Positions 16,241 through 53,700 of a stretch of 64,000 nt of DNA are shown one piece after another (position 1 is the stretch's first letter; each line of letters starts with the position of its first letter). The stretch is from Limnanthes douglasii subsp. nivea (lineage: Eukaryota; Streptophyta; Magnoliopsida; Brassicales; Limnanthaceae): positions 168,974,643 through 169,038,642 of the forward strand of contig JAUPFV010000001.1 of assembly GCA_036936605.1 (NCBI GenBank), written 5' to 3'. The position numbers were made by a program, and so were the translations under genes. Below the pieces are notes generated by a model. The model was not told the DNA's origin and searched no databases. It was given only the letters and a program-made list of their open reading frames with translations.

Positions 16241-16806
16241 TTAAAAAGTAGCATCATTTGACCAACAGTTTAGGAACCTAAAATTCTTTTTCCTATTGAT
16301 AGCATCATTAGAATTATGTAAATTTGAAGAAATGAGGAGTGGAGCATGGTCAGAACATGTTCTGACCATGTGAAAAACCTGTGTATCAGAGAATGTGGAC
16401 AACCATTTGTCATTGATTAATGCACGATCTAGCCTTCTCCATTTATTACTTCTTGACCAAGTAAACTTAGAACCACAATAGTCAGCATCATTCAGGTTGC
16501 AGCTTCTTATAGTATCATTAAAGTTGTCCATACTGGCTTGACAAGAGGATGTACAACCAAGTTTTTCATCATGAGCAGAAATAGTATTGAAATCCCCCAC
16601 ACACATCCAGGGCTTATCATTGTCACAAATAGCTTTAAGACAATCCCAAAGATCTAACCTTTGAATGCGATTGCATTTAGCAGTTAAGTAAACTTTATCA
16701 GTAATACCAGGATAAGCAATTTCCATGTGGATACATTGATCAACATTAAGAACAATATTAATAGTAACACTAGACGTCCAGAAAATCCAAAGTTTATCAG
16801 ACACAT
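16241..16806 (-). pseudogene. LINE apurinic-type endonuclease domain, N-terminally truncated
   Basis: The frame contains WMCVGDFNTISAHDEK (GDFN motif), YCGSKFTWSR, RRLDRALIN and RTCSDHAPLLI (the catalytic SDH box) in the order expected for the APE-like endonuclease that nicks the target. The N-terminal WNxxG block is missing because the element is cut at the inverted-repeat junction. Confidence 0.8.
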
Positions 16807-17314
16807 TAGCACATTTCAAGGGTCCAAAATCAGGCGGCTGATTGGCTGGCTAAATGGACTCTTAAATGTAAGCTTAAACATCATTTCCAGCAGCATAATA
16901 CACCCTCAGGTCTGCTAGCAATTACATTCCTGGAAAGTTTAGGTTTAGGATATATTCAATTCTGAACAAAGGTACTGCTAGAATTTTTCCTTTTGCATGT
17001 CTGATTAGGATCGAAAAGCTGGATTAAGGTAAAGAGAGTGAAGGGTTTGCTTGAATGGAAGGTTGTGATGTTGATAAAAAAGACGTTGAAAGGGCTGTTG
17101 GAGATGAAATCTGGCTTAGGAAGGCTTTGGACTGGAGTTCCCTGTTTTTAAGATTGACGGGAAATTTTCGGGCCAAAATTTGGCGGCAAAAATCTTGCCC
17201 TAATCCCTTTTTGTGTTAATTTAGGGTTAATTGCCTTGTAATCCTTCAAATTTTGTAATTTTCCCAATTTGTTAATAAAGTATTTCTTTTGATTAAAATA
17301 AATAAATAAAAAAT
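16807..17314 (+). mobile_element. Inverted copy of the spacer LINE's 3' end
   Basis: Starts inside the RNase H coding sequence (GCACATTTCAAGGGTCCAAA, the HISRVQ region) and runs through the 3' untranslated region to an AATAAATAAATAAAAAA tail. It mirrors 12,246-12,751. Confidence 0.85.
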
Positions 17315-17342
17315 GAATACTTAGGGTTTAATTTCCCTTATG

Positions 17343-17390
17343 ACCTCCTGCTTACTAAACGGGTGCTCTAACCAACTGAGTTATGAAAGC
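17343..17390 (-). tRNA. Mirror copy of the tRNA-Thr half, mutated
   Basis: Reverse complement of 12,170-12,218 with at least two substitutions, one in the anticodon stem and one in the D stem. Truncated at the same place. Confidence 0.75.
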
Positions 17391-17531
17391 TTTGTTTGCG
17401 TAATATGCTAGGGATGTATTTATACCATGACAGGGTCCTAGTTCAATTAGATCTCTCCCATTTTCTTTGATTTTAACAACTATAATGTGTTAGTACAGGA
17501 TTTAGTAACGCAGATTCGCCTTGTCTTTTGG

Positions 17532-17730
17532 GAGGATCAGACCAGCGCTTACTTGTTTACCGGCATCAACATTATGTAAAGACAGAAGCAAATATGTGTT
17601 TTAGGATGAGTATCACCCGACAGACAAAGCTAATGAACTGATTGCTAATGAGATGATCAAGAAATTTAAGATCATGAATGATGATGAAGCAACACCAGCA
17701 CCCGCAGTTGCTCCATCTCCAGAGGGATAA
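17532..17730 (+). pseudogene. GDSL esterase last exon, right-arm copy, broken
   Basis: Mirror of 11,830-12,028. The Trp codon of the FWDxxHPT box is TAG (17,602-17,604), and the acceptor AG has become GG (CTTTTGGGAGG), so this copy has lost both splicing and reading frame. Confidence 0.75.
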
Positions 17731-17944
17731 CTCATCTATGTACCATGTCTTTGCAATCGCAGCCACTTTTATTTTTTAAAAAAAGGGTTTAATTTCCCTT
17801 AAAAATAAAACCATAATATATTCCTAAATTGAAGCCTTTTGTGAGTTGAAGTTAAGCCCATTTATATCTTATTTTATTTATATGTGAACGATAAGAGAGG
17901 GTTTAACTAAGCTCTGCAAAACCCTAGCCAAGGTTTGGAGAAGA

Positions 17945-18215
17945 ATGGGACGAACGAGCAAAGATCTTCTGCATTTAGAGCACACCAATCATTCATCTTC
18001 TTCTTTATCTCTTGCTGGTAGGCCCTATTCTTCAATTATAGTTGCGAACCGATTTTATCTTTTTTGTCTATGAAATTGTCTTCGTCTGGAATTTGATTCT
18101 TTGATTCGTAAAATTCTAGAATCTGCACTTCTTATCTGTAACAAAAAGAAACCTGTCCCTCAAGCCGCTAAACCTAACACAAAACCCACCATCTCCTCTG
18201 TTCCTAAAAGCCAAG
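17945..18215 (+). pseudogene. NOPCHAP1-like exons 1-2, right-arm copy
   Basis: Exon 1 is 17,945-18,017 (73 nt) and exon 2 is 18,120-18,215 (96 nt), both in frame, with GT-AG intron 1 kept and a few amino-acid changes (one Pro to His, one Asp to Asn). The promoter with telo-box and site II motif is present upstream. Intron 2 continues to 19,057 and then the sequence switches to Tat pol. Exons 3-5 are absent. A transcript from this promoter would run into antisense-like Tat sequence. Confidence 0.8.
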
Positions 18216-19057
18216 GTAACTACTTTTTAACATCTGTTTCTTCTAATACTGCTTAGCTTTTAGAGTTATCGAATTTTGTTTTATAAATTATACTTCAGAT
18301 TGCATTGTTTAGGTTCTATATCTATGTATATATACATGCCTGATTAGCTAGCTAGCTCGTTGTGTTGTAGCTTTGGAGTTATTTTGTGAAATAATATCTC
18401 AGTTGGAGATAGACCATGGATTTTTATGTAGAAGAAACACATGTAGGCACATGTACATGAAATATACAAAAAACAACATGGACTATAGTTTATTACTTAC
18501 CTCATTATTTGGATACTTTTGATGGAAGTATATCATCTTGTACTTTGATAGGCCATTACTCCATTGCAATTTGAGATATAAACACTCTATTCTAGGTATG
18601 ACCTAAAAGGCCATCAAGTTTGTGACTGAACGTAAAAAAAATTGAACTAAGATACGCCGAACAGATTCACTGTATTGCATATAACAGTCGTTTGCATTTT
18701 ACGGAGAGAATGGTGGAGAATCCATGTACTCATAATAATGAACAATATCAATTAGATGCAACGTTTCTTTCCATGATAACATCAATTTTGCAAGTTTTTT
18801 CCATAGATGTGCAAACACACTATAATAGTGCAGTATCACTCTTTCCCGGATATCCTTCAGTTTCTCCCTTTGAAGTTCAACTGTGAGCCTAAGTTATTCA
18901 AACGGCCAGAGCATGATTTTAGAATATAATCAATGTACAAATATCGACTACCATGGCTGTAAGGATCCAGACAGCTAGATTTTCAAAACCCCAAATTTGG
19001 AATTATAATGGTATTGAATTCTAGAGTGTTGATAAGGGGTAGTTTCGTTACTTGCTT
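18216..19057 (+). other. Intron 2 copy of the NOPCHAP1-like gene
   Basis: Mirror of about 10,507-11,345. No gene inside: the 64-codon frame at 18,692-18,886 is intronic and has no motif. A similar copy lies at about 29,000-29,408. Confidence 0.7.
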
Positions 19058-28559: not shown

Positions 28560-28973
28560 AGGGTTTTGTGAGTTGAAGTTAAGCCCATTTATACCTTATT
28601 TTATTTATATGTGAACGATAAGAGAGGGTTTAACTAAGCTCTGCAAAACCCTAGCCAAGGTTTGGAGAAGAATTGGACGAACGAGCAAAGATCTTATGCA
28701 TTTATAAATGACAATAAAATAGTTGAGTATGTATCTTAGTTGTAATATCTCTTATTTTATTGAGGTGGGAGTAAGTATTAACCCATTTTTTAAATAACAC
28801 GTACCAATATCTTTTGTGAGAGAATACCAATATCTTTTGTGAGAGAATACTTAGGGTTTAATTTCCCTTAAAAATAAAACCATAATATATTCCTAAATTG
28901 AAGCCTTTTGTGAGTTGAAGTTAAGCCCATTTATACCTTATTTTATTTACATGTGAACGATAAGAGAGGGTTT
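28560..28973 (-). repeat. Detached inverted units of the 347-bp satellite
   Basis: Slightly more than one unit in the opposite orientation to the main array (AAGCCCATTTATACC, telo-box, GGACGAACGAGC, then the 23-bp internal duplication). The ATG is mutated to ATT at about 28,674. Confidence 0.85.
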
Positions 28974-28998
28974 ATATCTATTTTCATCAAGTTCTATT

Positions 28999-29740
28999 TT
29001 TGTTGTTGTTAACTTGTTATATCTCTAACTAGAATAGAGTGTTTATATCTCAAATTGCAATGGAGTAATGGCCTATCAAAGTACAAGATGATATACTTCC
29101 ATCAAAAGTATCCAAATAATGAGGTAAGTGATAAACTATAGTCCATGTTGTTTTTTGTATATTTCATGTACAGGTGCGTACAAGTGTTTCTTCTACAGAA
29201 AAATCTATGGTCTATCTCCAACTGAGATATTATTTCACAAAATAACTCCAAAGCTCCAACAAAACGAGCTAGCTAGCTAATCAGGCATGTATATATACAT
29301 AGATATAGAACCTAAACAATGCAATCTGAAGTATAATTTATAAAACAAAATTCGATAACTCAAAAAGCTAAGCAGTATTAGAAGAATCGGATCTTAAAAA
29401 GTAGTTACCTTGGCTTTTAGGAACAGAGGAGATGGTGGGTTTTGTGTCAGGTTTAGCGGCTTGAGGGAGAGGTTTCTTTTTGTTACAGATAAGGATAAGA
29501 AGTGCAGATTCTGGAATTTTACGAATCAAAGAATCAAATTCCATACGAACACAATTTCATAGACAAAAAAGATAAAATCGAAGAATAGGGCCTACCAGAA
29601 AGAGATAAAGAAGAAGATGAAGGATTGGTGTGCTCTAAATGCAGAAGATCTTTGCTCGTTCGTGCCATTCTTCTCCAAACCTTGGCTAGGGTTTTGCAAA
29701 GCTTAGTTAAACCCTCTAAAATAAGATATAAATGGGCTTA
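28999..29740 (-). pseudogene. NOPCHAP1-like exons 1-2 with promoter, third copy
   Basis: Minus strand: promoter above 29,669, exon 1 at 29,668-29,596 (73 nt; second codon GCA instead of GGA), intron 1 shortened, exon 2 at 29,510-29,409 (102 nt, carrying an in-frame 6-bp duplication GATAAG), then intron 2 to about 29,000. Splice sites are intact and exons remain in frame, but exons 3-5 are absent. Same orientation as the left-arm gene, opposite to the right-arm copy. Confidence 0.8.
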
Positions 29741-30045
29741 ACTTCAACTCACAAAAGGCTTCGATTTAGAGTTCTATAGACCAAAGCCTAGGGCTGTTAT
29801 TCCATTGCTTTTAGAACCCAAAATCTTATATTCGGTTCAAACAAAGCCAAAAGCCTTGTTTATGGACATACCTGATTTATACTTCTTTAGCATTTGTTTT
29901 GGTGAAATGTCTTTATTGTAGGTTTTTGTGCTCTCTTTTTGTGTTTTTCTTTTTTCTGACATTTAGCTTATGTTATGGATTCCCCGAGAACATTTAATCT
30001 TGATTTTTTGTACCGCTATTTCTGTAATTTTCTGCTCTTCTACAG

Positions 30046-30247
30046 GAGACACTCAAATGACCGTCAACAACCAAATTGTTGTTGGGACACTGATGAATTT
30101 GTGTGATGGTCCTACCAGAGTTAGTACTGGACAAAAATGGCGAGAATCCGATGTGACAAACAGAATTCCTATAATTTTTACTGGGAATGACTTTTCAACT
30201 CTTTATGCACCATTGATTCGCGATGGAAGGATGGAGAAATTCTATTG
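30046..30247 (+). pseudogene. Orphan exon of a Rubisco-activase-like AAA+ ATPase gene
   Basis: A 202-bp exon with a good acceptor (CTTCTACAG) and donor (TTG|GTATGT). It encodes DTQMTVNNQIVVGTLMNL, VSTGQKWRESDVTNRIPIIFTGNDFSTLYAPLIRDGRMEKFYW. This is the conserved sensor and arginine-finger region of Rubisco activase. VVGTLMNL and GQKWRE point to the less-studied paralogue group of Arabidopsis At1g73110, not to canonical activase. Activases are chloroplast ATPases that free inhibited Rubisco. No other exon of the gene is in the window, so this is a captured fragment with flanking intron (about 29,780-30,045 and 30,248 on). Confidence 0.75.
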
Positions 30248-30660
30248 GTATGTTATTTTTGTTCTAAACTACAGTGTCTTTTCTTTTCAAATGTTTGCAT
30301 TGTAATTCTCCATGGTCACTCATGTTAGTGAGTTTGGATGTCATGATTGACCATCTTGCTATAAAATTGGATTATAAATGATTCTATGAATAAACTTTAG
30401 TTTACTTAATCGTATCGACAATGTTTAGGTTACAAACGGAAGTATTTTTCTTTCATGAGTCAACAATTGTCGGTATTTTGTTGGATCGTCTTCTGTTGAT
30501 CTTGTACTGTTTATTAGATTTTTATTTTTTCAGGAAAAAAAAGTATAGAAGTATTATTCTTTTCTTTTTTTTTTCAATTTTCTTTTTAAACTTTTTAAGC
30601 ACACAGTCAAAACACTTTGACCTTACAACTAGTATAAATGTATGCCATAAAATTTTAGTA
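30248..30660. other. T-rich intron-like sequence, no gene
   Basis: Probably intron captured with the activase-like exon. T- and A-runs explain the spurious Phe/Lys-rich frames on both strands at 30,421-30,710. Confidence 0.5.
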
Positions 30661-33600
30661 ATAAAATAAGGTATAAATGGGCTTAACTTCAACTCACAAA
30701 AAGGCTTCAATTTAGAAATATATTATGGTTTTATTTTTAAGGGAAATTAAACCCTAAGTACTCTCTCACAAAAGATATTGGTATTCTCTCACAAAAGATA
30801 TTGGTACGTGTTATTTAAAAAATGGGTTAATACTTACTTAATATCCATCTCAATAAAATAAGAGATATTACAACTAAGATACATACTCAACTATTTTATT
30901 GTCATTTATAAATGCATAAGATCTTTGCTCGTTCGTCCCATTCTTCTCCAAACCTTGGCTAGGGTTTTGCAGAGCTTAGTTAAACCCTCTCTTATCGCTC
31001 ACATATAAATAAAATAAGGTATAAATGGGCTTAACTTCAACTCACAAAAGGCTTCAATTTAGGAATCTATTATGGTTTTATTTTTAAAGGAAATTAAACC
31101 CTAAGTATTCTCTCACAAAATATATTGGTATCTCTCACAAAAGATATTGGTACGTGTTATTTAAAAAATGGGTTAATACTTACTTAATATCCATCTCAAT
31201 AAAATAATAGATATTACAACTAAGATACATACTCAACTATTTTATTGTCATTTATAAATGCATAAGATCTTTGCTCGTTCGTCCCATTCTTCTCCAAACC
31301 TTGGCTAGGGTTTTGCAGAGCTTAGTTAAACCCTCTCTTATCGTTCACATATAAATAAAATAAGGTATAAATGGGCTTAACTTCAACTCACAAAAGGCTT
31401 CAATTTAGGAATATATTATGGTTTTATATTTAAGGGAAATTAAACCCTAAGTATTCTCTCACAAAAGATATTGGTATTCTCTCACAAAAGATATTGGTAC
31501 GTGTTATTTAAAAAATGGGTTAATACTTACTTAATATCCATCTCAATAAAATAAGAGATATTACAACTAAGATACATACTCAACTATTTTATTGTCATTT
31601 ATAAATGCATAAGATCTTTGCTCGTTCGTCCCATTCTTCTCCAAACCTTGGATAGGGTTTTGCAGAGCTTAGTTAAACCCTCTCTTATCGTTCATATATA
31701 AATAAAATAAGGTATAAATGGGCTTAACTTCAACTCACAAAAGGCTTCAATTTAGGAATATATTATGGTTTTATTTTTAAGGGAAATTAAACCCTAAGTA
31801 TTCTCTCACAAAAGATATTGGTATTCTCTCACAAAAGATATTGGTACGTGTTATTTAAAAAATGGGTTAATACTTACTTAATATCCATCTCAATAAAATA
31901 AGAGATATTACAACTAAGATACATACTCAACTATTTTATTGTCATTTATAAATGCATAAGATCTTTGCTCGTTCGTCCCATTCTTCTCCAAACCTTGGCT
32001 AGAGTTTTGCAGAGCTTAGTTAAACCCTCTCTTATCGTTCATATATAAATAAAATAAGGTATAAATGGGCTTAACTTCAACTCACAAAAGGCTTCAATTT
32101 AGGAATATATTATGGTTTTATTTTTAAGGGAAATTAAACCCTAAGTATTCTCTCACACAAGATATTAGTATTCTCTCACAAAAGATATTGGTACGTGTTA
32201 TTTAAAAAATGGGTTAATACTTACTTAATATCCATCTCAATAAAATAAGAGATATTACAACTAAGATACATACTCAACTATTTTATTGTCATTTATAAAT
32301 GCATAAGATCTTTGCTCGTTCGTCCCATTCTTCTCCAAACCTTGGCTAGGGTTTTGCAGAGCTTAGTTAAACCCTCTCTTATCGTTCACATATAAATAAA
32401 ATAAGGTATAAATGGGCTTAACTTCAACTCACAAAAGGCTTCAATTTAAGAATATATTATGGTTTTATTTTTAAGGGAAATTAAACCCTAAGTATTCTCT
32501 CACAAAAGATATTGGTATTCTCTCACAAAAGATATTGGTACGTGTTATTTAAAAAATGGGTTAATACTTACTTAATATCCATCTCAATAAAATAAGAGAT
32601 ATTACAACTAAGATATATACTCAGCTATTTTATTGTCATTTATAAATGCATAAGATCTTTGCTCGTTCGTCCCATTCTTCTCCAAACCTTGGCTAGGGTT
32701 TTGCAGAGCTTAGTTAAACCCTCTCTTATCGTTCACATATAAATAAAATAAGGTATAAATTGGCTTAACTTCAACTCACAAAAGGCTTCAATTTAGGAAT
32801 ATATTATGGTTTTATTTTTAAGGGAAATTAAACCCTAAGTATTCTCTCACAAAATATATTGGTATTCTCTCACAAAAGATATTGGTACGTGTTATTTAAA
32901 AAATGGGTTAATACTTACTTAATATCCATCTCAATAAAATAATAGATATTACAACTAAGATACATACTCAACTATTTTATTGTCATTTATAAATGCATAA
33001 GATCTTTGCTCGTTCCTCCCATTCTTCTCCAAACCTTGGCTAGGGTTTTGCAGAGCTTAGTTAAACCCTCTCTTATCGTTCACATATAAATAAAATAAGG
33101 TATAAATGGGCTTAACTTCAACTCACAAAAGGCTTCAATTTAGGAGTATATTATGGTTTTATTTTTAAGGGAAATTAAACCCTAAGTATTCTCTCACAAA
33201 ATATATTGGTATTCTCTCACAAAAGATATTGGTACGTGTTATTTAAAAAATGGGTTAATACTTACTTAATATCCATCTCAATAAAATAAGAGATATTACA
33301 ACTAAGATACATATTCAACTATTTTATTGTCATTTATAAATGCATAAGATCTTTGCTCGTTCGTCTCATTCTTCTCCAAACCTTGGCTAGGGTTTTGCAG
33401 AGCTTAGTTAAACCCTCTCTTATCGTTCACGTATAAATAAAATAAGGTATAAATGGGCTTAACTTCAACTCACAAAAGGCTTCAATTTAGGAATATATTA
33501 TGGATTTATTTTTAAGGGAAATTAAACCCTAAGTATTCTCTCACAAAAGATATTGGTATTCTCTCACAAAAGATATTGGTACGTGTTATTTAAAAAATGG

Positions 33601-36600
33601 GTTAATACTTACTTAATATCCATCTCAATAAAATAAGAGATATTACAACTAAGATACATACTCAACTATTTTATTGTCATTTATAAATGCATAAGATCTT
33701 TGCTCGTTCGTCCCATTCTTCTCCAAACCTTGGCTAGGGTTTTGCAGAGCTTAGTTAAACCCTCTCTTATCGTTCACATATAAATAAAATAAGGTATAAA
33801 TGGGCTTAACTTCAACTCACAAAAGGCTTCAATTTAGGAATATATTATGGTTTTATTTTTAAGGGAAATTAAACCCTAAGTATTCTCTCACAAAAGATAT
33901 TGGTACGTGTTATTTAAAAAATGGGTTAATACTTACTTAATATCCATCTCAATAAAATAAGAGATATTACAACTAAGATACATACTCAACTATTTTATTG
34001 TCATTTATAAATGCATAAGATCTTTGCTCGTTCGTCCCATTCTTCTCCAAACCTTGGCTAGGGTTTTGCAGAGCTTAGTTAAACCCTCTCTTATCGTTCA
34101 CATATAAATAAAATAAGGTATAAATGGGCTTAACTTCAACTCACAAAAGGCTTCAATTTAGGAATATATTATGGTTTTATTTTTAAGGGAAATTAAACCC
34201 TAATTATTCTCTCACAAAAGATATTGGTATTCTCTCACAAAAGATATTGGTACGTGTTATTTAAAAAATGGGTTAATACTTACTTAATATCCATCTCAAT
34301 AAAATAAAAGATATTACAACTAAGATACATACTCAACTATTTTATTGTCATTTATAAATGCATAAGATCTTTGCTTGTTCGTCCCATTCTTCTCCAAACC
34401 TTGGCTAGGGTTTTGCAGAGCTTAGTTAAACCCTCTCTTATCGTTCACATATAAATAAAATAAGGTATAAATGGGATTAACTTCAACTCACAAAAGGCTT
34501 CAATTTAGGAGTATATTATGGTTTTATTTTTAAGGGAAATTAAACCCTAAGTATTCTCTCACAAAAGATATTGGTATTCTCTCACAAAAGATATTGGTAC
34601 GTGTTATTTAAAAAATGGGTTAATACTTACTTAATATCCATCTCAATAAAATAATAGATATTACAACTAAGATACATACTCAACTATTTTATTGTCATTT
34701 ATAAATGCATAAGATCTTTGCTTGTTCGTCCCATTCTTCTCCAAACCTTGGCTAGGGTTTTGCAGAGCTTAGTTAAACCCTCTCTTATCGTTCACATATA
34801 AATAAAATAAGGTATAAATGGGCTTAACTTCAACTCACAAAAGGCTTCAATTTAGGAATATATTATGGTTTTATTTTTAAGGGAAATTAAACCCTAAGTA
34901 TTCTCTCACAAAAGATATTGGTATTCTCTCACAAAAGATATTGGTACGTGTTATTTAAAAAATGGGTTAATACTTACTTAATATCCATCTCAATAAAATA
35001 AGAGATATTACAACTAAGATACATACTCAACTATTTTATTGTCATTTATAAATGCATAAGATCTTTGCTCCTTCGTCCCATTCTTCTCCAAACCTTGGAT
35101 AGGGTTTTGCAGAGCTTAGTTAAACCCTCTCTTATCGTTCACATATAAATAAAATAAGGTATAAATGGGCTTAACTTCAACTCACAAAAGGCTTCAATTT
35201 AGGAATATATTATGGTTTTATTTTTAAGGGAAATTAAACCCTAAGTATTCTCTCATAAAAGATATTGGTATTCTCTCACAAAAGATATTGGTACGTGTTA
35301 TTTAAAAAATGGGTTAATACTTACTTAATATCCATCTCAATAAAATAAGAGATATTACAACTAAGATACATACTCAACTATTTTATTGTCATTTATAAAT
35401 GCATAAGATCTTTGCTCGTTGGCTAGGGTTTTGCAGAGCTTAGTTAAACCCTCTCTTATCGTTCACATATAAATAAAATAAGGTATAAATGGGCTTAACT
35501 TCAACTCACAAAAGGCTTCAATTTAGGAATATATTATGGTTTTATTTTTAAGGGAAATTAAACCCTAAGTATTCTCTCACAAAAGATATTGGTATTCTCT
35601 CACAAAAGATATTGGTACGTGTTATTTAAAAAATGGGTTAATACTTACTTAATATCCATCTCAATAAAATAATAGATATTACAACTAAGATACATACTCA
35701 ACTATTTTATTGTCATTTATAAATGCATAAGATCTTTGCTCGTTCGTCCCATTCTTCTCCAAACCTTGGCTAGGGTTTTGCAGAGCTTAGTTAAACCCTC
35801 TCTTATCGTTCACATATAAATAAAATAAGGTATAAATGGGCTTAACTTCAACTCACAAAAGGCTTCAATTTAGGAATATATTATGGTTTTATTTTTAAGG
35901 GAAATTAAACCCTAAGTATTCTCTCACAAAAGATATTGGTATTCTCTCACAAAAGATATTGGTACGTGTTATTTAAAAAATGGGTTAATACTTACTTAAT
36001 ATCCATCTCAATAAAATAAGAGATATTACAACTAAGATACATACTCAACTATTTTATTGTCATTTATAAATGCTTAAGATCTTTGCTCGTTCGTCCCATT
36101 CTTCTCCAAACCTTGGCTAGGGTTTTGCAGAGCTTAGTTAAACCCTCTCTTATCGTTCACATATAAATAAAATAAGGTATAAATGGGCTTAACTTCAACT
36201 CACAAAAGGCTTTAATTTAGGAATATATTATGGATTTATTTTTAAGGGAAATTAAACCCTAAGTATTCTCTCACAAAAGATATTGGTATTCTCTCACAAA
36301 AGATATTGGTACGTGTTATTTAAAAAATGGGTTAATACTTACTTAATATCCATCTCAATAAAATAAGAGATATTACAACTAAGATACATACTCAACTATT
36401 TTATTGTCATTTATAAATGCATAAGATCTTTGCTCGTTCGTCCCATTCTTCTCCAAACCTTGGCCAGGGTTTTGCAGAGCTTAGTTAAACCCTCTCTTAT
36501 CGTTCACATATAAATAAAATAAGGTATAAATGGGCTTAACTTCAACTCACAAAAGGCTTCAATTTAGGAATATATTATGGTTTTATTTTTAAGGGAAATT

Positions 36601-37433
36601 AAACCCTAAGTATTCTCTCACAAAAGATATTGGTATTCTCTCACAAAAGATATTGGTACGTGTTATTTAAAAAATGGGTTAATACTTACTTAATATTCAT
36701 CTCAATAAAATAAGAGATATTACAACTAAGATACATACTCAACTATTTTATTGTCATTTATAAATGCATAAGATCTTTGCTCGTTCGTCCCATTCTTCTC
36801 CAAACCTTGGCTAGGGTTTTGCAGAGCTTAGTTAAACCCTCTCTTATCGTTCACATATAAATAAAATAAGGTATAAATGGGCTTAACTTCAACTCACAAA
36901 AGGCTTCAATTTAGAAATATATTATGGTTTTATTTTTAAGGGAAATTAAACCCTAAGTATTCTCTCACAAAAGATATTGGTATTCTCTCACAAAAGATAT
37001 TGGTACGTGTTATTTAAAAAATGGGTTAATACTTACTTAATATCCATCTCACTAAAATAAGAGATATTACAACTAAGATACATACTCAACTATTTTATTG
37101 TCATTTATAAATGCATAAGATCTTTGCTCGTTCGTCCCATTCTTCTCCAAACCTTGGCTAGGGTTTTGCAGAGCTTAGTTGAACCCTCTCTTATCGTTCA
37201 CATATAAATAAAATAAGGTATAAATGGGCTTAACTTCAACTCACAAAAGGCTTCAATTTAGGAATATATTATGGTTTTATTTTTAAGGGAAATTAAACCC
37301 TAAGTATTCTCTCACAAAAGATATTGGTACGTGTTATTTAAAAAATGGGTTAATACTTACTTAATATCCATCTCAATAAAATTAGAGATATTACAACTAA
37401 GATACATACTCAACTATTTTATTGTCATTTATT
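30661..37433. repeat. Tandem array, ~19.5 copies of a 347-bp unit derived from a gene promoter
   Basis: The CATAAGATCTTTGCTCG marker recurs at 30,915; 31,261; 31,608; 31,955; 32,302; 32,649; 32,996; 33,343; 33,690; 34,014; 34,361; 34,708; 35,055; 35,402; 35,726; 36,073 (CTTAAG); 36,420; 36,767 and 37,114. Spacing is 347 except 346 once and 324 twice. Of each unit, about 194 bp equals 11,586-11,779: first codons, ATG, leader with telo-box, and promoter with site II motif of the NOPCHAP1-like gene. The other ~153 bp holds a 23-bp internal tandem duplication (TATTCTCTCACAAAAGATATTGG) and AT-rich sequence. Units are about 97-99% alike by eye. On the minus strand each intact unit opens an 11-codon frame (MGRTSKDLMHL, stop). 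Confidence 0.95.
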
Positions 37434-37520
37434 GTCAAGTTCTTTCTTACTATTGTGTATGCCAAATGCCAAATCTATAACAAAAGAATCTTGTAGAATG
37501 AGCTGAAGAACATCTCTTAT

Positions 37521-37850
37521 GTGGCTAACGACTTCAACTGGATTCTTATAGGTGACTTTAACGTCATTTGTTCTACTGATGAACAAATTGGTTGCTTAAC
37601 TTATTCAATGGAGAGTGTTGAGGAGTTCAATGATATGATAACAACTTGTAGCGTAGATAATGCAGGCTATTATGGTTTAAGTATACTTGGAATAAACACA
37701 ACAAATGGAAAAGACTAGATAGAGTTTTAATAAACTCTAACTGGTCTAACCATTTTAACAATACTAAAGTGATGTATATGGCCAGAACTTGTTCTGATCA
37801 GAGTCTCATATGCATCACCATTAGTAATGACTAAGAGATATATCATAAAA
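37521..37850 (+). pseudogene. LINE copy C, endonuclease domain (C-terminal part)
   Basis: MANDFNWILIGDFNVICSTDEQ carries the GDFN motif. Then comes a frameshift in the YTWNKHN region, and downstream ARTCSDQSL, where the catalytic His of SDH is Gln as in copy B. Confidence 0.75.
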
Positions 37851-37996
37851 GTTTCAAATTCTTTGATATGTGGACCTTGGATGATAACTTTATGCCTTTT
37901 GTTAAAAATAGTTGGGATAACCATATGGATGGATCCCCTATTTTCAAATTCTGGTATGAATTAACTAGACTTAAAAAAGATCTTAAAAATTAGAAT

Positions 37997-39726
37997 GTGA
38001 CTCACTTTGGGAACATATTTTGTAAGGTGCATGAGGCTGAAACTCAAATGAACTACATGGAGAATCAACATCAATTACTAAACAATACTGATACTAAAGT
38101 TAATCTATTTAAAGCTAACGTTAATCTTCTTTTAGTCTTGAAGATGGAGGAGAACTTCTGGTTTCAGAAGTGCTACACATCCTGGATAGCAGATGGAGAT
38201 AAGAGTACTAAGCTCTTTCACAATTATGTGAAAAAGAAAAGGAAGAAGAATGTTATAAACAACATCAAATATGGTGATCATTGGATTACTAACAAAGATG
38301 AGATTGGTTACTCTGCTGCTAAGTTTTTTTAAAATCTTCTTACTGATCCTCCTTACTATGACAAAATGGTGGAAGATGATATGATGAACAATAATATTTT
38401 TAATAGTATCCCTAAGCTAATCATTGCTGCTAACAATGATTTCTTGTTATCTGTTCCTATTAAGAAATAAATCTACAACATCATTACTAACCTTAAGTCC
38501 TCCAGTGGCTCAGGAATGGATGGCTTCAATGGTTGTTTCTTCATAACCTGTTAGAGCATTATACAGGTAGATCTCTGTTTTGCTATGGGTGACTTCATCA
38601 AAGGTAAAAAGATCGCTAGAGGTATTATTTTTACTGTTATTTTCTTAGTGCCTAAGTCTGTTAATCCTACTCAATGGAAGGACTTTAGGCCTATAATCCT
38701 TTGCAACTTACTCAACAGAATCATGTCTAAAGTTATTAATAATAGACTTTTTAATTAGAAAAAACTAAAAACTTATTTATGATTTAATTAGAAAAAGAAC
38801 AGTAGTAACATGATGATTCAGGTTGACATATCGAAAGCTTTTGATATGTTGGCTCACAGATATATTCTGAAGGTCCTTGAAGCCTTTGGTTTCTCTGTTT
38901 GTTTCATTCATCTGATAAATAATCTAATTAGTAATGTTAATATGCCCTTATTATCAATAGATAGGTGTATGACTTCTTCAAAAGCATAAGAGACTAAAGA
39001 CAGGGGGATCCCCTGTCCCCCAGTCTTTTTATTCTGGCTGAAGAAGTCCTTACAAGAGGTCTTCATAAACTGTTCTATAGCAATAAAGATATAAAGTTTC
39101 AATCTAGAAGTAGTTTGCTTATTCCTAGTCTCATATTTGCTGATGATATACTGATTTTTTCTAATAGTACTGATCAAACAATTGATAAGCTCAGTAACTT
39201 TCTGGATATCTATCAAAATGTTTATGGACAATTTATTATAAAAGATAAAACGAAAATCATTTTATCTTCTATAATAAACAACACTAGGATATCTACGCTA
39301 ACTAATCTTTCAGGGTTCAGTTCTAGCATATTACCTACTGAGTATATGGAAATCACTTTGAACAGAAATAACAAGTGTAGTAACTACATGCCTATGCTCA
39401 ACAAAATCAATGTTAAGATCAGAGAGTGGGAAAACAAAAAACTCTCTTTTGGTGGCAGAATCACTCTCATTAACTCGGTTTCAATGTTGATTCTTACTTA
39501 CTGGTGTCAAAACTGTTTGATCCCCAAGTCTACTATCAATAGAACTAATACTATCTTAAATAATTTCTTATGGAGGACTAACTTTACTGATAAGAGGTTA
39601 CATTGGTCTAAATGGGAGGATATGTGTAAAACCTACAAGGAATGTGGCTCAATATTCGAAAACTTTCTAGTCTGCATGCTACTTTTGATTGCAAACTGTG
39701 TCTTTAGAAACAATGAGAGCCTCTAG
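37997..39726 (+). pseudogene. LINE copy C, reverse transcriptase
   Basis: An N-terminal frame at 37,997-38,332 (FWFQKCYTSWIADGDKS) and the palm at 39,115-39,726 (SLIFADDILIFSNSTDQ with the FADD pair, KDKTKIIL, YMEITLNRN, FGGRITLINSVSM). Between them the SSGSGMDGFNG and VDISKAFD motifs (38,500-38,860) are readable but split by stops. Confidence 0.8.
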
Positions 39727-39768
39727 GCAAACCTTAAGAATGATGTTTATTACAAATCCATTCATCCC

Positions 39769-40182
39769 TTGCAAGTTTCCTACAACAAAACTGGCTCTAG
39801 TAACTGGAAAAGACTTTGCAAGATTAAAGATGTTGCTGAGCCTAATATAAGGTGGAACATAGGCAAAGAAAACATGGAATTCTGGCTTAAAGCCTGGTAT
39901 GGTTCTCCACCTCTTGTTACTTTAGATGACAATTTTAATAACACTGGTTACATGCAACAAAATATCATTGAATTTCGGAAGGATAACAAGTGGGATGGCT
40001 ATAAACTAAGGATTTTCCTCAATCAAAACAACATTGATTTAATTCATAAAATAACTATCAATGATCAGATTGAGGATACTATAGCTTGGGCTCTCTCCAC
40101 TGATACCAAATTTAATACTAAGCTTACCTGGAATCATGTTAGATACAAGCACAATAAATCTGACATATTTGGTAAAATGTGA
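39769..40182 (+). pseudogene. LINE copy C, RT C-terminal region
   Basis: 137-codon frame with SSNWKRLCKIKD, RWNIGKENMEFWLKAWYG and DTIAWALSTDTKFNTKLTW, the region between thumb and zf-RVT in plant L1s (compare ILGRGNIDFWKDSWHS in the spacer LINE). Confidence 0.7.
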
Positions 40183-40257
40183 AACTCAGTTGTTCCTAAA
40201 AAAGTTTATTTTCTTGCTTAGAAACTTGTCCACAAATTTAATCTTGTTGACACTATC

Positions 40258-40536
40258 ATGCACAAAAATCATCTTACTACTGTATCCAAATGCCAGTGGT
40301 GTTATAATATTGAATCTCCTATTTATCTGTTCATAAACTGGGATTTTGCTTGGAATCTTTGGTCTCACTATGAATTTATTTTTAAGATCAAAGTTGAGAG
40401 ATATATGACTATGAATCATATGATTCGATCTCTGTTTTGGTCTACCAATAGTTATGTTCACATTAGAACTATATTATCCATTGTTATACTCTGGACTATA
40501 TGGAACGCTAGAAACAACAAGAAATTTAGCAAATAA
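40258..40536 (+). pseudogene. LINE copy C, zf-RVT domain
   Basis: HKNHLTTVSKCQWCYNIESPIYLFINWDFAWNLW is the zinc-binding zf-RVT, with CxxC present but the His/Cys of the second half partly lost. ILWTIWNARNNKKF follows, the usual exit motif. Confidence 0.75.
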
Positions 40537-40566
40537 AACTTAATATAGAGATAGTTGTTTTAAGTC

Positions 40567-41194
40567 TTGACCATTCTAATACTCTTAAAGCTAAACACTG
40601 GCATAAATATCCATATTGCGAAAGACCTGGGCTGCTCTTGCTATATTATAGAAGAAATAAAGCCTAGATATTTGAAATGGTGTCCTCCGAAAGAAAATTA
40701 CCTCAAGCTGAACTGTGATGCTTTTTGTCATAAAAATGGTAACTCGGGAGGAGGCTTTCTGATCCGTGACCATAATGGAAACATTGTTAAAGGAGGAACA
40801 AATCTATACGGTAAAATGACTCCAATCATGACCGAATCGTAACCTCTACTAAATGGTTTTCTTCTCTGCAAAAAAAAATCGTTGGAGTAAGGTTGAAATT
40901 GAAGTCAACTCTCTGCTAGTGGTAAACATGTTATCAGAAGGAAAATATCCTTTTTACTTAAATCATGTTATAATGTGTTGTATAAGACTAATCTCTTCTT
41001 ATATGAACATCTCTTACATTTCCAGGGTCCAAAACCAAGCAGCTGATTGGCTTGCAAGATGGACCCTAAAATGTAAGATGAGAAATGAATTTAATCATTT
41101 AGAAACTCAACTTCTATTAAAAGCTATAACTTTATTTGAAAGTTATAATTTAGGTTACTCTAATCTGGATGCATATTTCTTGATTATTGATTAA
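40567..41194 (+). pseudogene. LINE copy C, RNase H domain
   Basis: Two frames: KPRYLKWCPPKENYLKLNCDAFCHKNG (first catalytic Asp), PIMTES and a stop; then KVEIEVNSLLVVNML and SRVQNQAADWLARWTLKCK (last Asp). The DVESDS Asp is changed (EIEVNS), so activity is lost besides the nonsense codon. Confidence 0.8.
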
Positions 41195-41652
41195 GCATGG
41201 AATTACTTTTTTAATATCACTAAATGGCAGCAAGCTTTGCTTGACATGGCCATCTTTACCTTTAGTTGCAGATTGGTTTGGAAAGATAATGAAGAAGATA
41301 TTGATATCCTGAAGCAGATTGGCAAAGGGAGTTCATGAAGGAGATGCATAAATTTTGAAACAAAGAAGAAAAGAACTAATGAAGTTGAAGATGAGAATAT
41401 ATTTTTTCATTGGGGCTGAATTGGAATTTTCATCTAAAGTTTTGAAGAATCTGTGGGTCTTTCTTTAGCCTGGAGGGAGGACTAATTTTTTTTTTAAATT
41501 CTTTCTTAAAAACTTTGGAGGGAAATATGAAATTTTCTCTTCTTCCTTTTTGTTAACCTTTGTTGGCCTAAGTTTGGGTCAACTGTGAATCTCAATTGTA
41601 ATACTCTCTAGCTTTTGATTTACTGTTTAATTAAATAAAATAATAATAATAA
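41195..41652 (+). other. LINE copy C 3' untranslated region and A-rich tail
   Basis: No frame. Ends with repeated AAT units (41,630-41,652), the usual tail of plant L1s. Confidence 0.65.
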
Positions 41653-47753: not shown

Positions 47754-48161
47754 TGATGAGTCCGAATTCTTCCTGCTCCCCGGACAGGGACAGATCGGTC
47801 CAAGGCCTCCGGACCGGACAGATCACTTCGAACACTTAGCCCGTAGGACTGTTCGAACTATGACAAAAGTACTAAAAAACCTAAACACTTCTTGATTAAG
47901 CTACTTGCTCTCCTACTCAGAGCTCATGGGTCTTTGAACATGACCCGGGTCCATTAAACATGACCCGAAAGCCCATAAGGGCCCACACATAAGGGTATAA
48001 ATACCCAACCACCTGCATTAAGTGTGGGTAATGGGAATTAACTGCAACCAGCCAGCTTAATTATCTCTCTACTCTCTACTCTAAATATTAAATACCTCCA
48101 CACCACTATAAAATACCAAACAAATTACAAGCCTACCATCAGGCGATAATTATCCTCACCA
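47754..48161 (+). repeat. 5' LTR of the young Tat element
   Basis: Starts TGATGAGTCC, ends CCTCACCA. Carries GGTATAAATACCC (TATA box about 47,993-48,001) and an AC-rich leader with CTCTCTACTCTCTACTC. Six mismatches to the 3' LTR by eye. Confidence 0.95.
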
Positions 48162-48164
48162 AAT

Positions 48165-48180
48165 TGGCGACCACAGTGGG
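48165..48180 (+). other. Primer binding site (tRNA-Arg type)
   Basis: TGGCGACCACAGTGGG lies three bases after the LTR. TGGCGAC then TGGG fits the tRNA-Arg PBS known from Tat/Ogre elements at most positions. Confidence 0.65.
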
Positions 48181-48188
48181 AGAAGAGG

Positions 48189-48830
48189 GTGCCTGAATCA
48201 AGCATTCAAAACCAGCAAAAAAAGTCTGCCCGAATGAATCTGGACAGTCCAGAAGTACCACCAGCTCTGCTCGAAGTGGTGGGAGAGAACGACGAGTACA
48301 CTATCGAAGAGCGCGATAGGCTAAAGGGTGAAATAGAAGCTCTGAGGGCAGAAAAGGCTAAGATGGGCATGAAAGAAAAGTCCAAAGTATCAGTTGCTCA
48401 TCGCACCGACAACCCCAGAGAGCATGAGTCTTCAAAGACTCATGTGAGTACCAAAAAGACTCATGCCAGCTCCAAAAAATCTCACCGGACTAAGCCAGTA
48501 GAGAGCTCTGACTCAAGCTCAGAATCTTCTGATAGCTCCTCGGATGATGAGGGAGTTGAAGAATCCTTATCCTCTAGCAGCGATGAGGGTCGAACTAAAA
48601 AGAAGCAAAAGCAGATAAAAAAATATTCAAGAAAAAGGGATAGGCATGGAAAGATGAAGAAGAATATCGGCAAAGGGTCATCTCACAGCCAGAGGCATGT
48701 AGACCGGATGCTGATGGATCCTTTCGCTTTCCACGATGAGCCATGTGTCTTTGCAACCCCTAATGAGGATACCGTGTTCAGTCGTGGCAGAAATTGGAGG
48801 CAATCTCCATTATCTTCCAGAATGCCCTAA
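48189..48830 (+). CDS. Gag N-terminal frame (frameshifted)
   Basis: 213 codons: a coiled-coil-like start (YTIEERDRLKGEIEALRAEK), then a long Lys/Ser/Asp-rich linker (SSDSSSESSDSSSDDEG, KKKQKQIKKYSRKRDRHGK), and the MDPFAFHDE segment that precedes the gag core in Tat elements. It stops at 48,828 right after SSRMP. The homologous KRFDSTKIEKYD sequence continues in the +1 frame, so one base was gained or lost around 48,815-48,830. Gag forms the virus-like particle in the cytoplasm. I take the break as a mutation because no slippery site is visible. Confidence 0.75.
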   Translation: MPESSIQNQQKKSARMNLDSPEVPPALLEVVGENDEYTIEERDRLKGEIEALRAEKAKMGMKEKSKVSVAHRTDNPREHESSKTHVSTKKTHASSKKSHRTKPVESSDSSSESSDSSSDDEGVEESLSSSSDEGRTKKKQKQIKKYSRKRDRHGKMKKNIGKGSSHSQRHVDRMLMDPFAFHDEPCVFATPNEDTVFSRGRNWRQSPLSSRMP

Positions 48831-50043
48831 GAGGTTTGACAGCACCAAAATAGAAAAGTACGATGACAATACTGATCCGGACAACCATTTGGAACAATTT
48901 AAAAACTTCATGATGAACTTTGACGACGATACTAAACTACTTTGTAGGGCATTCTCCCAATCATTTACGGGGAGTGGTCTAAAATGGTATAACAGCCTGC
49001 CTCAGGGTTGTATTAAGGATTTCGATACTTTTTGGGTAGCCTTTCGAAGGCAGTTTGTAGGGAGTAAAGAGCTAAAGGGCAATGGAGACACAATAATCCA
49101 TTGTACCCAGGAACCAAATGAGTCATTAAAAGAATATATAAGCCGTTTTGTGAATACCAAGAATGGGTTGGCTGATTGCTTCGAACAGGTAGCAATATCA
49201 TCCCTAAGACAGGGCTTGAACCCTGGCAATTTGGCTGACTCGGTGACCAGAAAGAAGGCCATGACATGGGGAGGGTTTCTGAATCAGGTTGGAAAACAAA
49301 TTAATGTCGATGAAACGAAGAAAACCAGGGTGCACAGGCAGGTGAGGTCTACCCCGGTGACACCAAATCCCAATCAGAATCAGTCCGGGAACAAAGCAAG
49401 AGAGACCGGACAGGGGCATGGTAGGGCAAAAGCTCAGTCTCAGCCAGCTGCTCCTGCTCAGAGTCAGCAATCCAGAAACAAGAGAGGGCCATGGGTCCAA
49501 CCGGAGTGGTTCGCAGAATTAAAAGAAAGTGTGGCCACCATTTTTGATAAAACAAAGGAAGAGGTACATTATCGGAGACCAGCCACATTACAGTCTCCCA
49601 GAGAGCATCGCAATAACTCCTTTTGCCAATATCACAATGATATTGGTCATATCACTGATGACTGCATAGCATTGAAGCAGGAAGTTCAGAACTTGATTGA
49701 GAGGGAAAAGCTGGGAGCTTATGTCAAAAGAAGAGGAGGTAACAGGCCTCACAATACTCACCGGGTTGGTCCAAGTAATGCTGCTCCAGAGGGAGCCATG
49801 GTTATAATTGAAAGATTTGATGTGGAATCTGAGTACTTGGATCCTGATCCAACTCGAAACAGAGTGGGTACAATTGAGGAATATTCTAGGTCGGTCTCCG
49901 GACTCATTAAGTTTTTTGAGTCACTTACAATTTTCGGAGGGGATACTATGACAGCTCCTACTGCTTCTTCGAGGAAGAGGCACGTTCATACTTTAGCCTC
50001 CCAGCTAGAAGGAGGTATGACTTCCTATCAGTCACAAAATTGA
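48736..50043 (+). CDS. Gag core (retrotransposon gag domain and zinc knuckle), ends at a nonsense codon
   Basis: The real gag reading starts near KRFDSTKIEKYD (about residue 32); earlier residues are out of register. The retrotrans_gag domain spans about 35-185 (DPDNHLEQFKNFM, WYNSLPQGCIKDFDTFWVAFRRQF, SLKEYISRFVNTK, ISSLRQGL). A Gln/Pro-rich linker and an FCQYHNDIGHITDDC zinc knuckle (residues about 296-310) follow, then the linker to protease. TGA at 50,041 interrupts what should be one gag-pol frame. It assembles particles and binds RNA. Confidence 0.85.
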   Translation: MSHVSLQPLMRIPCSVVAEIGGNLHYLPECPKRFDSTKIEKYDDNTDPDNHLEQFKNFMMNFDDDTKLLCRAFSQSFTGSGLKWYNSLPQGCIKDFDTFWVAFRRQFVGSKELKGNGDTIIHCTQEPNESLKEYISRFVNTKNGLADCFEQVAISSLRQGLNPGNLADSVTRKKAMTWGGFLNQVGKQINVDETKKTRVHRQVRSTPVTPNPNQNQSGNKARETGQGHGRAKAQSQPAAPAQSQQSRNKRGPWVQPEWFAELKESVATIFDKTKEEVHYRRPATLQSPREHRNNSFCQYHNDIGHITDDCIALKQEVQNLIEREKLGAYVKRRGGNRPHNTHRVGPSNAAPEGAMVIIERFDVESEYLDPDPTRNRVGTIEEYSRSVSGLIKFFESLTIFGGDTMTAPTASSRKRHVHTLASQLEGGMTSYQSQN

Positions 50044-50562
50044 TTCCCCTTCATTGTTTTTGATGAAGATGATTTAAGAGATATAGCTGGCCCTCATGAG
50101 GATGTTGTTGTCATAGGAGCATCTATTGGGGGCAATGACATAAGACGAATTCTGGTTCATACTGGAAGCTCAGCCAATATCATTTTCTTAACCACATATA
50201 AGAGAATGAAAAATCCAGTTGTAATTCAGAGTTCAGACAGATCAATTGTGGGCTTTACAGGCAGCTCAACAGATGTGATCGGAGAGTTCGAAGAGGAAGT
50301 TCTACTGGGCAAGGGCCCTTTTAAGAAAATGGTCAGGATAATTTTTATCATGGTGGATTGTCCCACTTGCTATAATGCTATTCTAGGGAGATCTTGGATT
50401 TCTAGGATGCATGCAGTGGCTTCGACAGTCCACCAATGCTTGAAATATGTTGTTCAGGGACAGGTGGGAGTCGTCCGGAGAAGTCAAAAGATTGCAAGAG
50501 AATGTTATGCTAATGCTCTGGCACCCCAGACACCGGGGGCAGTTCACATCAACGAGCAATAG
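50044..50562 (+). pseudogene. Aspartic protease domain, catalytic Asp replaced by His
   Basis: Same frame as gag. IVFDEDD, then RRILVHTGSSANIIF (HTG at 50,158-50,166, where the family has D-T/G-G), VGFTGSS, FIMVDCPTCYNAILGRSWI (the typical flap and ILG box). The active-site Asp codon is CAT, one base from GAT. TAG at 50,560 ends the frame. Protease would cut Gag-Pol into mature proteins. Here it would be inactive even if translated. Confidence 0.8.
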
Positions 50563-50763
50563 CAGTTTGAGGGGCTTTCTAGGGGTGAGGGTGAAATTGA
50601 TGACCCTAGAGAGACCCCTGGAGTATTGATACCGGTCGAAGAGGTAGAGACACACTGTTTGGAAGAGGGAAGAAGTGTCAAGATAGGGTCTAAGATGCCA
50701 GCCGTTTTGAAAAGTGAAATGTTAAAGTTTTTGAAGAATCATCAGCATGTTTTTTCTTGGTGA

Positions 50764-53700
50764 AATGCTGATGTTACTGGGGTTCCAGCAGAAGTGATAT
50801 CACATCACCTATCTGTCCGGAGAGACATAGCACCAGTGGTTCAAAAGAGAAGAGCTTTTTCTAAGGAGAAGGCTGATGTCATTGTGCAAGAGGTTGACAG
50901 GCTCACAAAGATGGGGCACATCAAGGAGTCTCAGTATCCTTTGTGGACTGCCAATCCGGTTCTGGTAAAGAAGAAAAATGGCAAGTGGCGCATGTGCATT
51001 GACTTCACAGATCTCAATAGAGCTTGCCCAAAAGATTTGTATCCGGTCCCCTGGATTGATCAGTTAGTAGACTCCACCTCTGGGAACAAGCTGCTTTCCT
51101 TTATGGATGCCTTCTCCGGATACAAACAGATTCAAGTAGATCCAAAAGATCAAGAGCATACCACATTTGTCACTGACAGAGGTCTCCATTGCTATAAGGT
51201 AATGCCGTTTGGGTTGAAAAATGCTGGGGCTACTTATCAGAGGTTAGTAAACAAAGCTTTTACTGATCAGATTGGAAGAAATATGGAAGTATACATTGAT
51301 GACATGATGGTGAAGAGTGTGGACGAGCAATTGCATTTGTCTGATCTCCAAGAAACTTTTACCAACTTGGTAAAAGTAAATTTGAAATTAAACCCAGAAA
51401 AGTGTGTGTTCGGAGTGCAGTCCGGGAAGTTTCTGGGCTATATTATAAGTGAGCATGGAATACAACCAGATCTGGACCAGATCGGGTTGTATTCCATGGA
51501 GCCTCCTCGAAATATTAAAGAAGTACAGCGACTGACGGGGAGATTAGCTGCCTTAAACAGATTTATCTCAAGGTCTTCGGACATGTGCGCCCCGTTCTTT
51601 CAAACCTTGAAGGGTGCAAAGGGTTTCGATTGGACCCCACAGTGTGATGAGGCTTTCAATGAGATCAAGAAGCACCTGTCCTCCCCCAAAACCTTGTTTA
51701 AACCAGTTGATGGGGAGACACTCTTCGTATATTTGGCAGTTTCGAGTTGTGCCATCAGTGTTGTATTGGTAAGGGAGGTCGATGGTCATCCCCATCCAGT
51801 GTACTACATCAGCAAAAGTTTGATAGATGCAGAAAGACGTTATTTGAAACTCGAAAAATTAGCATTAGCCCTGGTAATAGCTGCCAGGAAGATGAGGCCT
51901 TATTTCCAGGCTCATCCCATCATCGTCCGGACTTCTTTCCCCCTGAAGAATGTCCTCCAAAAGGCAGACATTTCAAGCAGGATGACTAAGTGGTCAGTAG
52001 AGTTGGGAGACTTCGACATAGACTTTGCTCCTCGAACAGCAGTCAAGGCCCAAGTTGTGGCTGACTTTTTGGTTGAATTTCACTCCGACGGAAATTCGGA
52101 GCAGACTACTGACATGAAAGATAAAAAAGTGTGGGTCGTCCGAACAGATGGTGGATCTAGCACTATGGGATGTGGTGCAGGGGTGTGTTTGACTTCTCTG
52201 TATGGTGACAAAATGTACCAAGCTATTTGTTTTGCTTTCAGGGCATCCAATAATGAGTCAGAATACGAAGCAGCTATAGCTGGGTTAAAGTTAGCCTACA
52301 TTTGTGGGGCCAAGAGGGCCAGGCTACTAAGTGACTCACAGCTTCTGATCCACCATGCCCAAGGCCAATCTGAGGCTAAAAACGAGCAGCTTGTGAAATA
52401 TTTACTCCTTCTTAAAAATGAAGCACTCAAGTTTAAAAGTGTTGTTTATGAGCACATACCCCGGGCAAAAAATGAGCTAGCAGACTCGTTAGCAACCATA
52501 GCATATACAGAGTCATATCTATGGATCCATGTGCTGGAAAGCCCCTCCATTCAACTTAGTATGGGTAAAGAAGAGGAGATTTTTGAAGTGCAAGTGAAAC
52601 AAGCTCAAGACTGGAGGTTTCCTCTCCTGCAATATCTCTCTGATGGTATTGTGCCTCCGGACAAAACACTAGCCAGAACGTTGAAACACAAGGCTCGTGG
52701 TTTCATCATATTAAGAGACATGTTGTATAAAAAATCTTACAGTAAACCTCTCCTGCGCTGTTTGGGGGATGAAGAGTCTCAAGTAGTCCTCTCCGAATTG
52801 CATGATGGTGAGGGATCAGCCCATTATGGATTCAGAGCTTTAACAAGAAGAGTTTTACTGTCCGGTTACTATTGGCCATCTATCATGAAAAATGCTAAGG
52901 AATTGGTAAGAAGGTGTGACCCATGCCAGAGGTATAGCAATAAAATTCATGTCCCAGCCATTCCTTTAGAGTCAATTTCTGAGCCTATTCCTTTTGCTCG
53001 ATGGGGGTTGGATTTAGTAGGGCCTCTCCCTGTGGCGTCCGGAGGACGCAAAACTATAATTGTTGCCATAGACTACTTTTTGAAGTGGATTGAAGCAGCC
53101 CCTCTAGCAGGAACAACATCAAAACCTGTTATAAAATTCATTCTATCCAACATCTGTTGCAGATTTGGTGTCCCACAAAAGATAACAACAGACAATGGGC
53201 CACAGTTCGAAAATAGGGGAATGGAGAGCTTTTGTGCCTCAAGGGGTATACAACATTGTTTCTCTTCACCTTTCCACCCACAAGAAAATGGGCAAGTTGA
53301 GGTGGCTAATAGAACTATATTGTCCGGTTTAAAGAAGAATTTGGAAGGGGCTGTTGGAAAGTGGCCTAGTTATTTACAAGAGGTCTTGTGGGCCTACCGG
53401 ACAACACCTGGGGCTGCAACACAAGAATCACCCTTTGCTTTGGTCTATGGGATGGATGTAGTAGCTCCCATAGAAGCAACTCTCCCGTCATTTCGTATTC
53501 ACAACTTCTCAGAACACGCTAACGAGGTGGCAATCAGAGGTCAACTTGATTTGGTAGAAGAAAGACGAGTTAAAGCTCACCTTAGAGTTGCACACTATCA
53601 GGGTTTGATGAGAAGCAGGTTTGCTTCCAAAGTTAAAAGAAGAGATTTCCAACCAGGGGACAAGGTATTGAGGAAGGTCTTCTTACACACTAAAGAAAAG

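Follow-up and report, generated by a model that had tools for sequence, protein, structure and literature searches.

A 6.8-kb tandem array apparently amplified from the promoter and start codon of a NOPCHAP1-type gene in Limnanthes douglasii subsp. nivea

Introduction

How does a monotonous tandem array arise from the 5' end of an ordinary gene, and does it serve any purpose once it exists? We met this question in a 64,000-nucleotide stretch of the genome of Limnanthes douglasii subsp. nivea, here called the window (contig JAUPFV010000001.1 of assembly GCA_036936605.1, hereafter C1; C1:168,974,643-169,038,642 of a 1.78-Gb genome). The initial annotation of the window, made from its letters, described a 347-bp satellite-like array in which a promoter, a leader, an ATG and the first codons of a NOPCHAP1-like gene recur about 19.5 times. 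It named the gene copy at 11,586-11,779 as the parent and considered the array as a cluster of live or silenced promoters, a transcription-factor decoy or a source of siRNA. The Arabidopsis NOPCHAP1 homologue, EBO1, is reported to be a single-copy, essential gene whose product binds NOP58 (PMC13415960). Here we trace the donor of the array, the joint at which it was founded and the explanations that might compete for it.

Results

Extent and structure of the array

The repeat structure described initially was borne out. TRF delimited an array at 30,660-37,432 with a period of 347, 19.7 copies, 96% matches and a score of 12718, and counting by junctions gave 19 whole units between 30,910 and 37,433 preceded by a partial unit at 30,660-30,909. 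Fifteen whole units measure 347 bp, two 324 bp, one 346 bp and the last 325 bp. Each of them contains, whole or in part, a 194-bp 5' block of a NOPCHAP1-type gene, which in the units aligning over its full length is 96.9-98.5% identical to window positions 11,584-11,777. The array and a typical unit read as follows:

30,660-37,433, minus strand (promoter orientation, the same in every unit): tandem array of 19 whole units and a partial first unit
31,256-31,602, minus strand: typical unit, comprising the joint, codons 11 to 1, a leader with telo-box, a TATA-like string, site II, a distal telo-box, a 23-bp duplicated motif and far upstream sequence

The monomers are highly similar and arranged head to tail, as in a satellite. 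However, satellite DNA is defined, as cited in PMC7004042, by long arrays of tens of kb to Mb, and a single array of only 6.8 kb does not sustain that label. No second array appeared among the genome matches listed for a 401-bp array query (40 of 566 candidates scored) or for the 194-bp block (31 of 31). We claim no higher-order repeats: variants shared at a lag of 10 units reached P 0.038 before correction, yet the best-lag statistic came to P 0.81. Rfam at gathering cutoffs and ARAGORN with the bacterial code detected no structured RNA or tRNA in the window.

The NOPCHAP1 family in this genome

The best named protein matches, among the best 120 of 307, come from flowering plants. Joining the exons of the window's most complete gene copy, copy A, at the splice points of the family yields a 189-residue protein that matches Pfam PF15370 (NOPCHAP1) with an E value of 5.8e-14; judged by this predicted product, the gene is a real NOPCHAP1 homologue. 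The motif SKDLL lies near the N-terminus of six of nine fetched plant relatives, and LL is found in all nine.

The family forms a cluster on C1, consisting of copies E1, E2 and A, the 5' fragments B and C and the array. A second pair, D1 (C223:207.507 Mb) and D2, resides on C223. An older paralogue, K, lies on C112; its identity is 71-75% for exon 2 and for the last exon, rising to 84-91% for the two short middle exons. The copies inside the window are:

9,453-11,616, minus strand: NOPCHAP1 copy A, exons 11616-11544, 11441-11346, 10359-10289, 10206-10144, last ~9716-9453
11,584-11,777, minus strand: 194-bp 5' block in copy A
17,784-19,056, plus strand: NOPCHAP1 copy B, a 5' fragment that duplicates copy A in inverted orientation
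17,784-17,977, strand opposite to copy A: 194-bp block in copy B
29,026-29,769, minus strand: NOPCHAP1 copy C, a 5' fragment with a promoter stub, exons 1 and 2 and some of intron 2

Copies A and B belong to an inverted duplication of the gene's 5' half (10,505-12,758 and 16,803-19,056; 98.4% identity over 2.25 kb) with LINE sequence in its middle. Copy C carries a shorter, gapped block (29,636-29,769) and has bases in common with D2 that the other copies lack. The exons of copy A are open, but its last-intron acceptor reads AC instead of AG; E1 has lost one donor and E2 two acceptors, whereas the splice sites are intact in D1, D2 and K (the last read by eye). About 206 bp of other sequence sits in the leader of D2. 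Of the copies seen on C1 and C223, D1 alone combines open exons, a complete set of splice sites and an unbroken promoter, although the one-base lesions of the other copies could be assembly errors.

The promoters of A, B, E1 and E2 carry an insertion, located in copy A at window positions 11,778-12,222, with a poly-T edge and, in A, an 18-bp flanking repeat, TAAGGGAAATTAAACCCT. It includes what we take to be a GDSL-lipase-like stretch and, near 12,180, a presumably tRNA-like stretch, although ARAGORN with the bacterial code found no tRNA. Overall the insertion looks like a chimeric retrocopy.

A D1-like copy is the likelier donor

The unit sequence occurs once and in one piece at D1 (L009 7,312-7,654), between exon 1 and the native upstream flank, extending from exon 1 across the leader and the promoter to some 310 bp before the ATG. 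Nowhere else did we find a whole unit standing singly next to an intact gene, and D1 lies on another chromosome. Over 343 aligned bases, the array consensus and D1 agree at 338 and are separated by 5 substitutions, with one 4-bp indel besides. The initial annotation had derived about 194 bp of each unit from the gene; that block was confirmed, and since D1 holds the unit contiguously, the remaining 153 bp are the next stretch upstream, likewise native to the gene. The promoter origin thus emerged stronger than proposed, the whole unit being gene-derived, and the search for a complete NOPCHAP1 locus sharing the block ended at D1, predicted to be intact.

Three features link the array to D1 and carry the assignment to a D1-type donor: unit position 8, a 23-bp duplication and the upstream part. 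At position 8, within codon 9 (ATG), array, D1 and D2 have one base in common, whereas A, B, E1, E2, C and K have G; because codon 9 encodes leucine in nine of nine fetched plant relatives, the base of array, D1 and D2 is derived. The 23-bp upstream duplication is found in D1 and the array and is absent from the corresponding C1 flank (L013), which is only about 90% like the unit. In copy A, the upstream stretch has been displaced by the insertion at ~11,778, with a LINE from ~12,246.

D1 itself is not the exact donor, since within the 194-bp block the array consensus differs at two positions from B, three from A and four from D1; by this raw count the array is nearer to B and A, the bases at positions 143, 152 and 177 being private to D1. 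Copy A, the parent proposed initially, has a broken last acceptor, a different base at position 8 and a different C1 flank, and without the features common to D1 and the array we set it aside. The sequence comparison makes a D1-like copy the likelier donor, and on the simplest reading this would have been the counterpart of D1 on C1, now visible only as the array.

A single founding joint

At every one of the 19 junctions, the far upstream end is joined to codon 11. The fused ends, CATTTAT from upstream and AAATGCA from exon 1, have 1 bp in common as read on D1, and the resulting 14-base junction is identical at 18 of 19 boundaries, the other having one substitution away from the joint. As all 19 junctions carry the same joint, a single tandem duplication founded the array. 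Position 110 is G in all units read for it and in an inverted array-derived piece, and in no gene copy, as expected of one founder. That piece came from the array, for it contains the same joint:

28,564-28,974, plus strand: array-derived inverted piece, 411 bp, ~1.2 units, with the founding joint and a mutated ATG

The joint also creates a stop codon after an 11-codon open reading frame. The ATG is kept in 18 of 19 units, and 14 of 19 would encode MGRTSKDLMHL followed by the stop.

Both ends of the array are broken. The sequences around them are:

29,774-30,473, exon on the plus strand: fragment with an RCA-like exon; its sole other DNA match in the genome is syntenic (C223:207,545,300-207,545,958, 90%)
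30,474-30,660, minus strand: left flank, whose counterpart lies ~1.1 kb farther upstream at D1; in the window it is inverted and meets the promoter internally, at unit position ~97
37,433-41,650, plus strand: 5'-truncated LINE abutting the right end, its 3' end approximate and placed by eye

The exon in the first of these fragments (window 29,967-30,305) resembles a Rubisco activase gene (PDB 3t15, E 9e-23). At a larger scale, C1 168.94-169.04 Mb is syntenic with C223 207.48-207.58 Mb; in a list of matches of at least 250 bp outside the array, most long matches are 90-96% identical and the listed rows range from 73 to 99%, with inversions. These blocks may go back to recent polyploidy, segmental duplication or a sex-chromosome pair. 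Palindromes are seen on C1, a second one at the left window edge pairing window 38-1,678 with L013 8,346-10,000 (99.1% over 1.65 kb). About 10.4 kb including a Gypsy-type polyprotein (window 47,754-58,216) interrupts the synteny, and the syntenic pieces on its two sides appear to have 5 bp of C223 in common, as expected of a target duplication.

In our view, the 5' end of a D1-type NOPCHAP1 gene was probably amplified in tandem at this one locus not long ago, as a by-product of local duplication, and the array now drifts. Its history began when a joint with 1 bp of shared sequence gave a direct duplication of 347 bp, from about 310 bp upstream of the ATG to codon 11. Unequal exchange, replication slippage or rolling-circle copying could then have raised the number to about 20 units. 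Both ends of the array are broken and the 411-bp piece lies apart and inverted, presumably as the outcome of a later phase. The array would have no selected function. Most units retain core-promoter parts and the 11-codon reading frame, and may have started transcripts at birth before they began to drift.

Age and constraint

Across the 20 units we counted 36 separate substitution events (47 cells); any two of the 19 whole units diverge by 1.3% on average. The gene block has 22 of the events and the remainder of the unit 14, in keeping with their lengths (P 0.62), and with events following length in this way we claim no selection on the promoter motifs. The leader telo-box, site II, the distal telo-box and the TATA-like string are all kept in 15 of 19 units. 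Changes of the C-to-T type amount to one event at 8 CG positions against 13 at 93 CHH positions, which, at these small numbers, is no excess. By their sequence the units look young and unconstrained, few events and 8 CG positions being a weak test of selection, and homogenisation could hide the age of the array. The functions suggested initially, whether live or silenced promoters, decoy or siRNA source, left no signal in the sequence: motifs change without constraint and CG decay is not evident, again on small numbers.

Could the array silence the intact gene?

The best rival to a drifting by-product is an array that acts in trans, and the layout of the locus would fit it. Small RNAs from the array, its inverted 411-bp partner and the inverted A and B copies would methylate and silence D1, and perhaps D2. 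The promoter sequence does exist both in tandem and in inverted orientation. Exact 24-mer positions matching the array number 214 at the D1 locus, all between L009 7,311 and 7,655, as against 35 at the D2 locus, 117 at copy A and none at K.

The b1 repeats of maize belong to a working gene and act on that gene and its allele, whereas no intact NOPCHAP1 copy adjoins the array here. Like our array, these 853-bp repeats form a tandem array of non-coding sequence, and they are described in maize paramutation (PMC2774164). Further precedents are two Arabidopsis systems, in which extra copies, truncated in the case of FOLT, are unlinked and similar to an intact copy: truncated FOLT2 copies are reported to make siRNAs that silence FOLT1 (PMC8042742), and extra TAD3 copies to accompany a silenced TAD3-1 (PMC5257005, PMC8042742). 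The array shares with FOLT2tr this near-identity to an intact unlinked copy (338 of 343 bases with D1). Unlike FOLT2tr and TAD3, it is a monotonous array of the 5' end alone, known from sequence. Silencing would be expected to have consequences, as the plant NOPCHAP1 gene EBO1 is described as single-copy and essential (PMC13415960), but K and D2 could supply the function. The array moreover has no excess of CG decay, although the power of that comparison is low, and RdDM components are reported not to be key to transmitting the TAD3 epiallele (PMC5257005). We regard silencing in trans as unlikely. Doubtful to a greater degree is its most far-reaching form, in which a promoter-only array from one founding duplication would now be a trans-acting epigenetic silencer of an intact NOPCHAP1 gene on another chromosome, with the function shifted to K and a hybrid incompatibility of the FOLT/TAD3 type as the outcome.

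Promoter motifs and the decoy explanation

In the consensus unit there are two telo-boxes, with P 0.0005 when compared with first-order shuffles, and a single site II, for which P taken by itself is 0.13. The combination of the telo-box AAACCCTA with site II TGGGCY that characterises ribosome-biogenesis promoters is thus present, at a gene that Pfam assigns to NOPCHAP1. As in the promoters of that class described in PMC3022908, the telo-box lies in the leader and site II upstream of the TATA-like string; unlike them, the promoter here has been multiplied about 20 times and severed from the remaining coding sequence.

TCP factors bind site II. With 37 exact telo-boxes (20 and 17 on the two strands) and 18 TGGGCT sites in 6.8 kb, the array might conceivably be a binding platform or decoy for such factors and for TRB proteins, or a chromatin nucleation site, the more so as TRB proteins are reported to bind telo-boxes and to be able to recruit PRC2 (PMC13132431). 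However, 9.7% of Arabidopsis genes are reported to carry telo-boxes in their 5' flanks (PMC3022908), against which 37 sites would be a small titration, and the motifs change without visible constraint, all four tested elements surviving together in only the 15 units counted above. This explanation is very unlikely.

Dispersal of the block and possible transposon capture

A genome search with the 194-bp block returned 32 matches (31 of 31 candidates scored), of which 30 belong to the two NOPCHAP1 clusters, on C1 and C223, with the array counted in; the other two are 35 bp long and represent old exon-1 relics. Apart from the array and its one inverted piece, NOPCHAP1 copies and relics were the only places where the block turned up, a result that is strong, not absolute, as the search tool skips very common words. 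By this search the block is not a repeat dispersed among unrelated genes, the finding that would have overturned the promoter origin. A 401-bp stretch of the array gave at least 62 genome matches (40 of 566 candidates scored); 31 of them link about 80 bp in the upstream part of the unit to a dispersed repeat, with 81-96% identity.

A Helitron, Pack-type or LTR element might have captured the promoter and built or carried the array. The similarity of those 80 bp would agree with this, as would a neighbourhood that is a mosaic of gene fragments and the presence of other NOPCHAP1 pieces in dispersed repeats. But the search placed the promoter block only at the two clusters and the two 35-bp relics, the fragments next to the array are matched in the syntenic part of C223, which fits local rearrangement, and the edges of the array, read by eye, are inverted upstream sequence and a LINE. 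Capture by a transposon is, if anything, less probable again than a decoy.

Two dispersed groups of NOPCHAP1 pieces were observed. The first comprises intron 1, exon 2 and part of intron 2 (window 11,037-11,544, L031-L035, L041 and L042), 509 bp in full and shorter in some copies, at seven of seven fetched loci. It is 94.5-97.4% identical to copies A and D1, shares surrounding sequence of up to 1.46 kb and is listed at 18 places outside the clusters and K; it looks like a mobile element that captured an exon. The second group (L036-L040, five loci fetched) carries pieces of an older NOPCHAP1 copy, from exon 1 and exons 3-4, that have stops in common.

Least credible of all is an assembly artefact or a miscounted array: the evidence base is an assembly only, and the copy number was taken from that one assembly, but a duplicated read path would not readily give whole units of which all 19 differ in sequence from one another.

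Discussion

Tandem arrays from single-copy genic sequence have been reported, an intron-derived primate satellite cited in PMC7004042 being an example. The NOPCHAP1 array resembles it in the head-to-tail amplification of unique genic sequence. It differs in being one 6.8-kb array rather than tens of kb to Mb, and in that its donor was a promoter with a start codon, of which a donor-type locus and the founding joint can still be seen. To our knowledge, this combination is an uncommon variant. In our searches of the literature we recognised no matching promoter-derived satellite, which is no proof of absence.

If the array made small RNAs, it would amount to a natural silencer, made of promoter sequence only, for an essential gene family. 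Were the silencer explanation true, the promoter array would take the place of the truncated coding copies of the Arabidopsis systems, with K sharing no 24-mer with it. As a drifting by-product, which we favour, the array illustrates the birth of tandem repeats out of an ordinary gene, and its sequence gives no sign of a job. Many satellites are too old or too homogenised to reveal their origin; in this case one can read the exact joint, a donor-type locus and the earliest tens of mutations, so that models of array birth can be tested on this real case.
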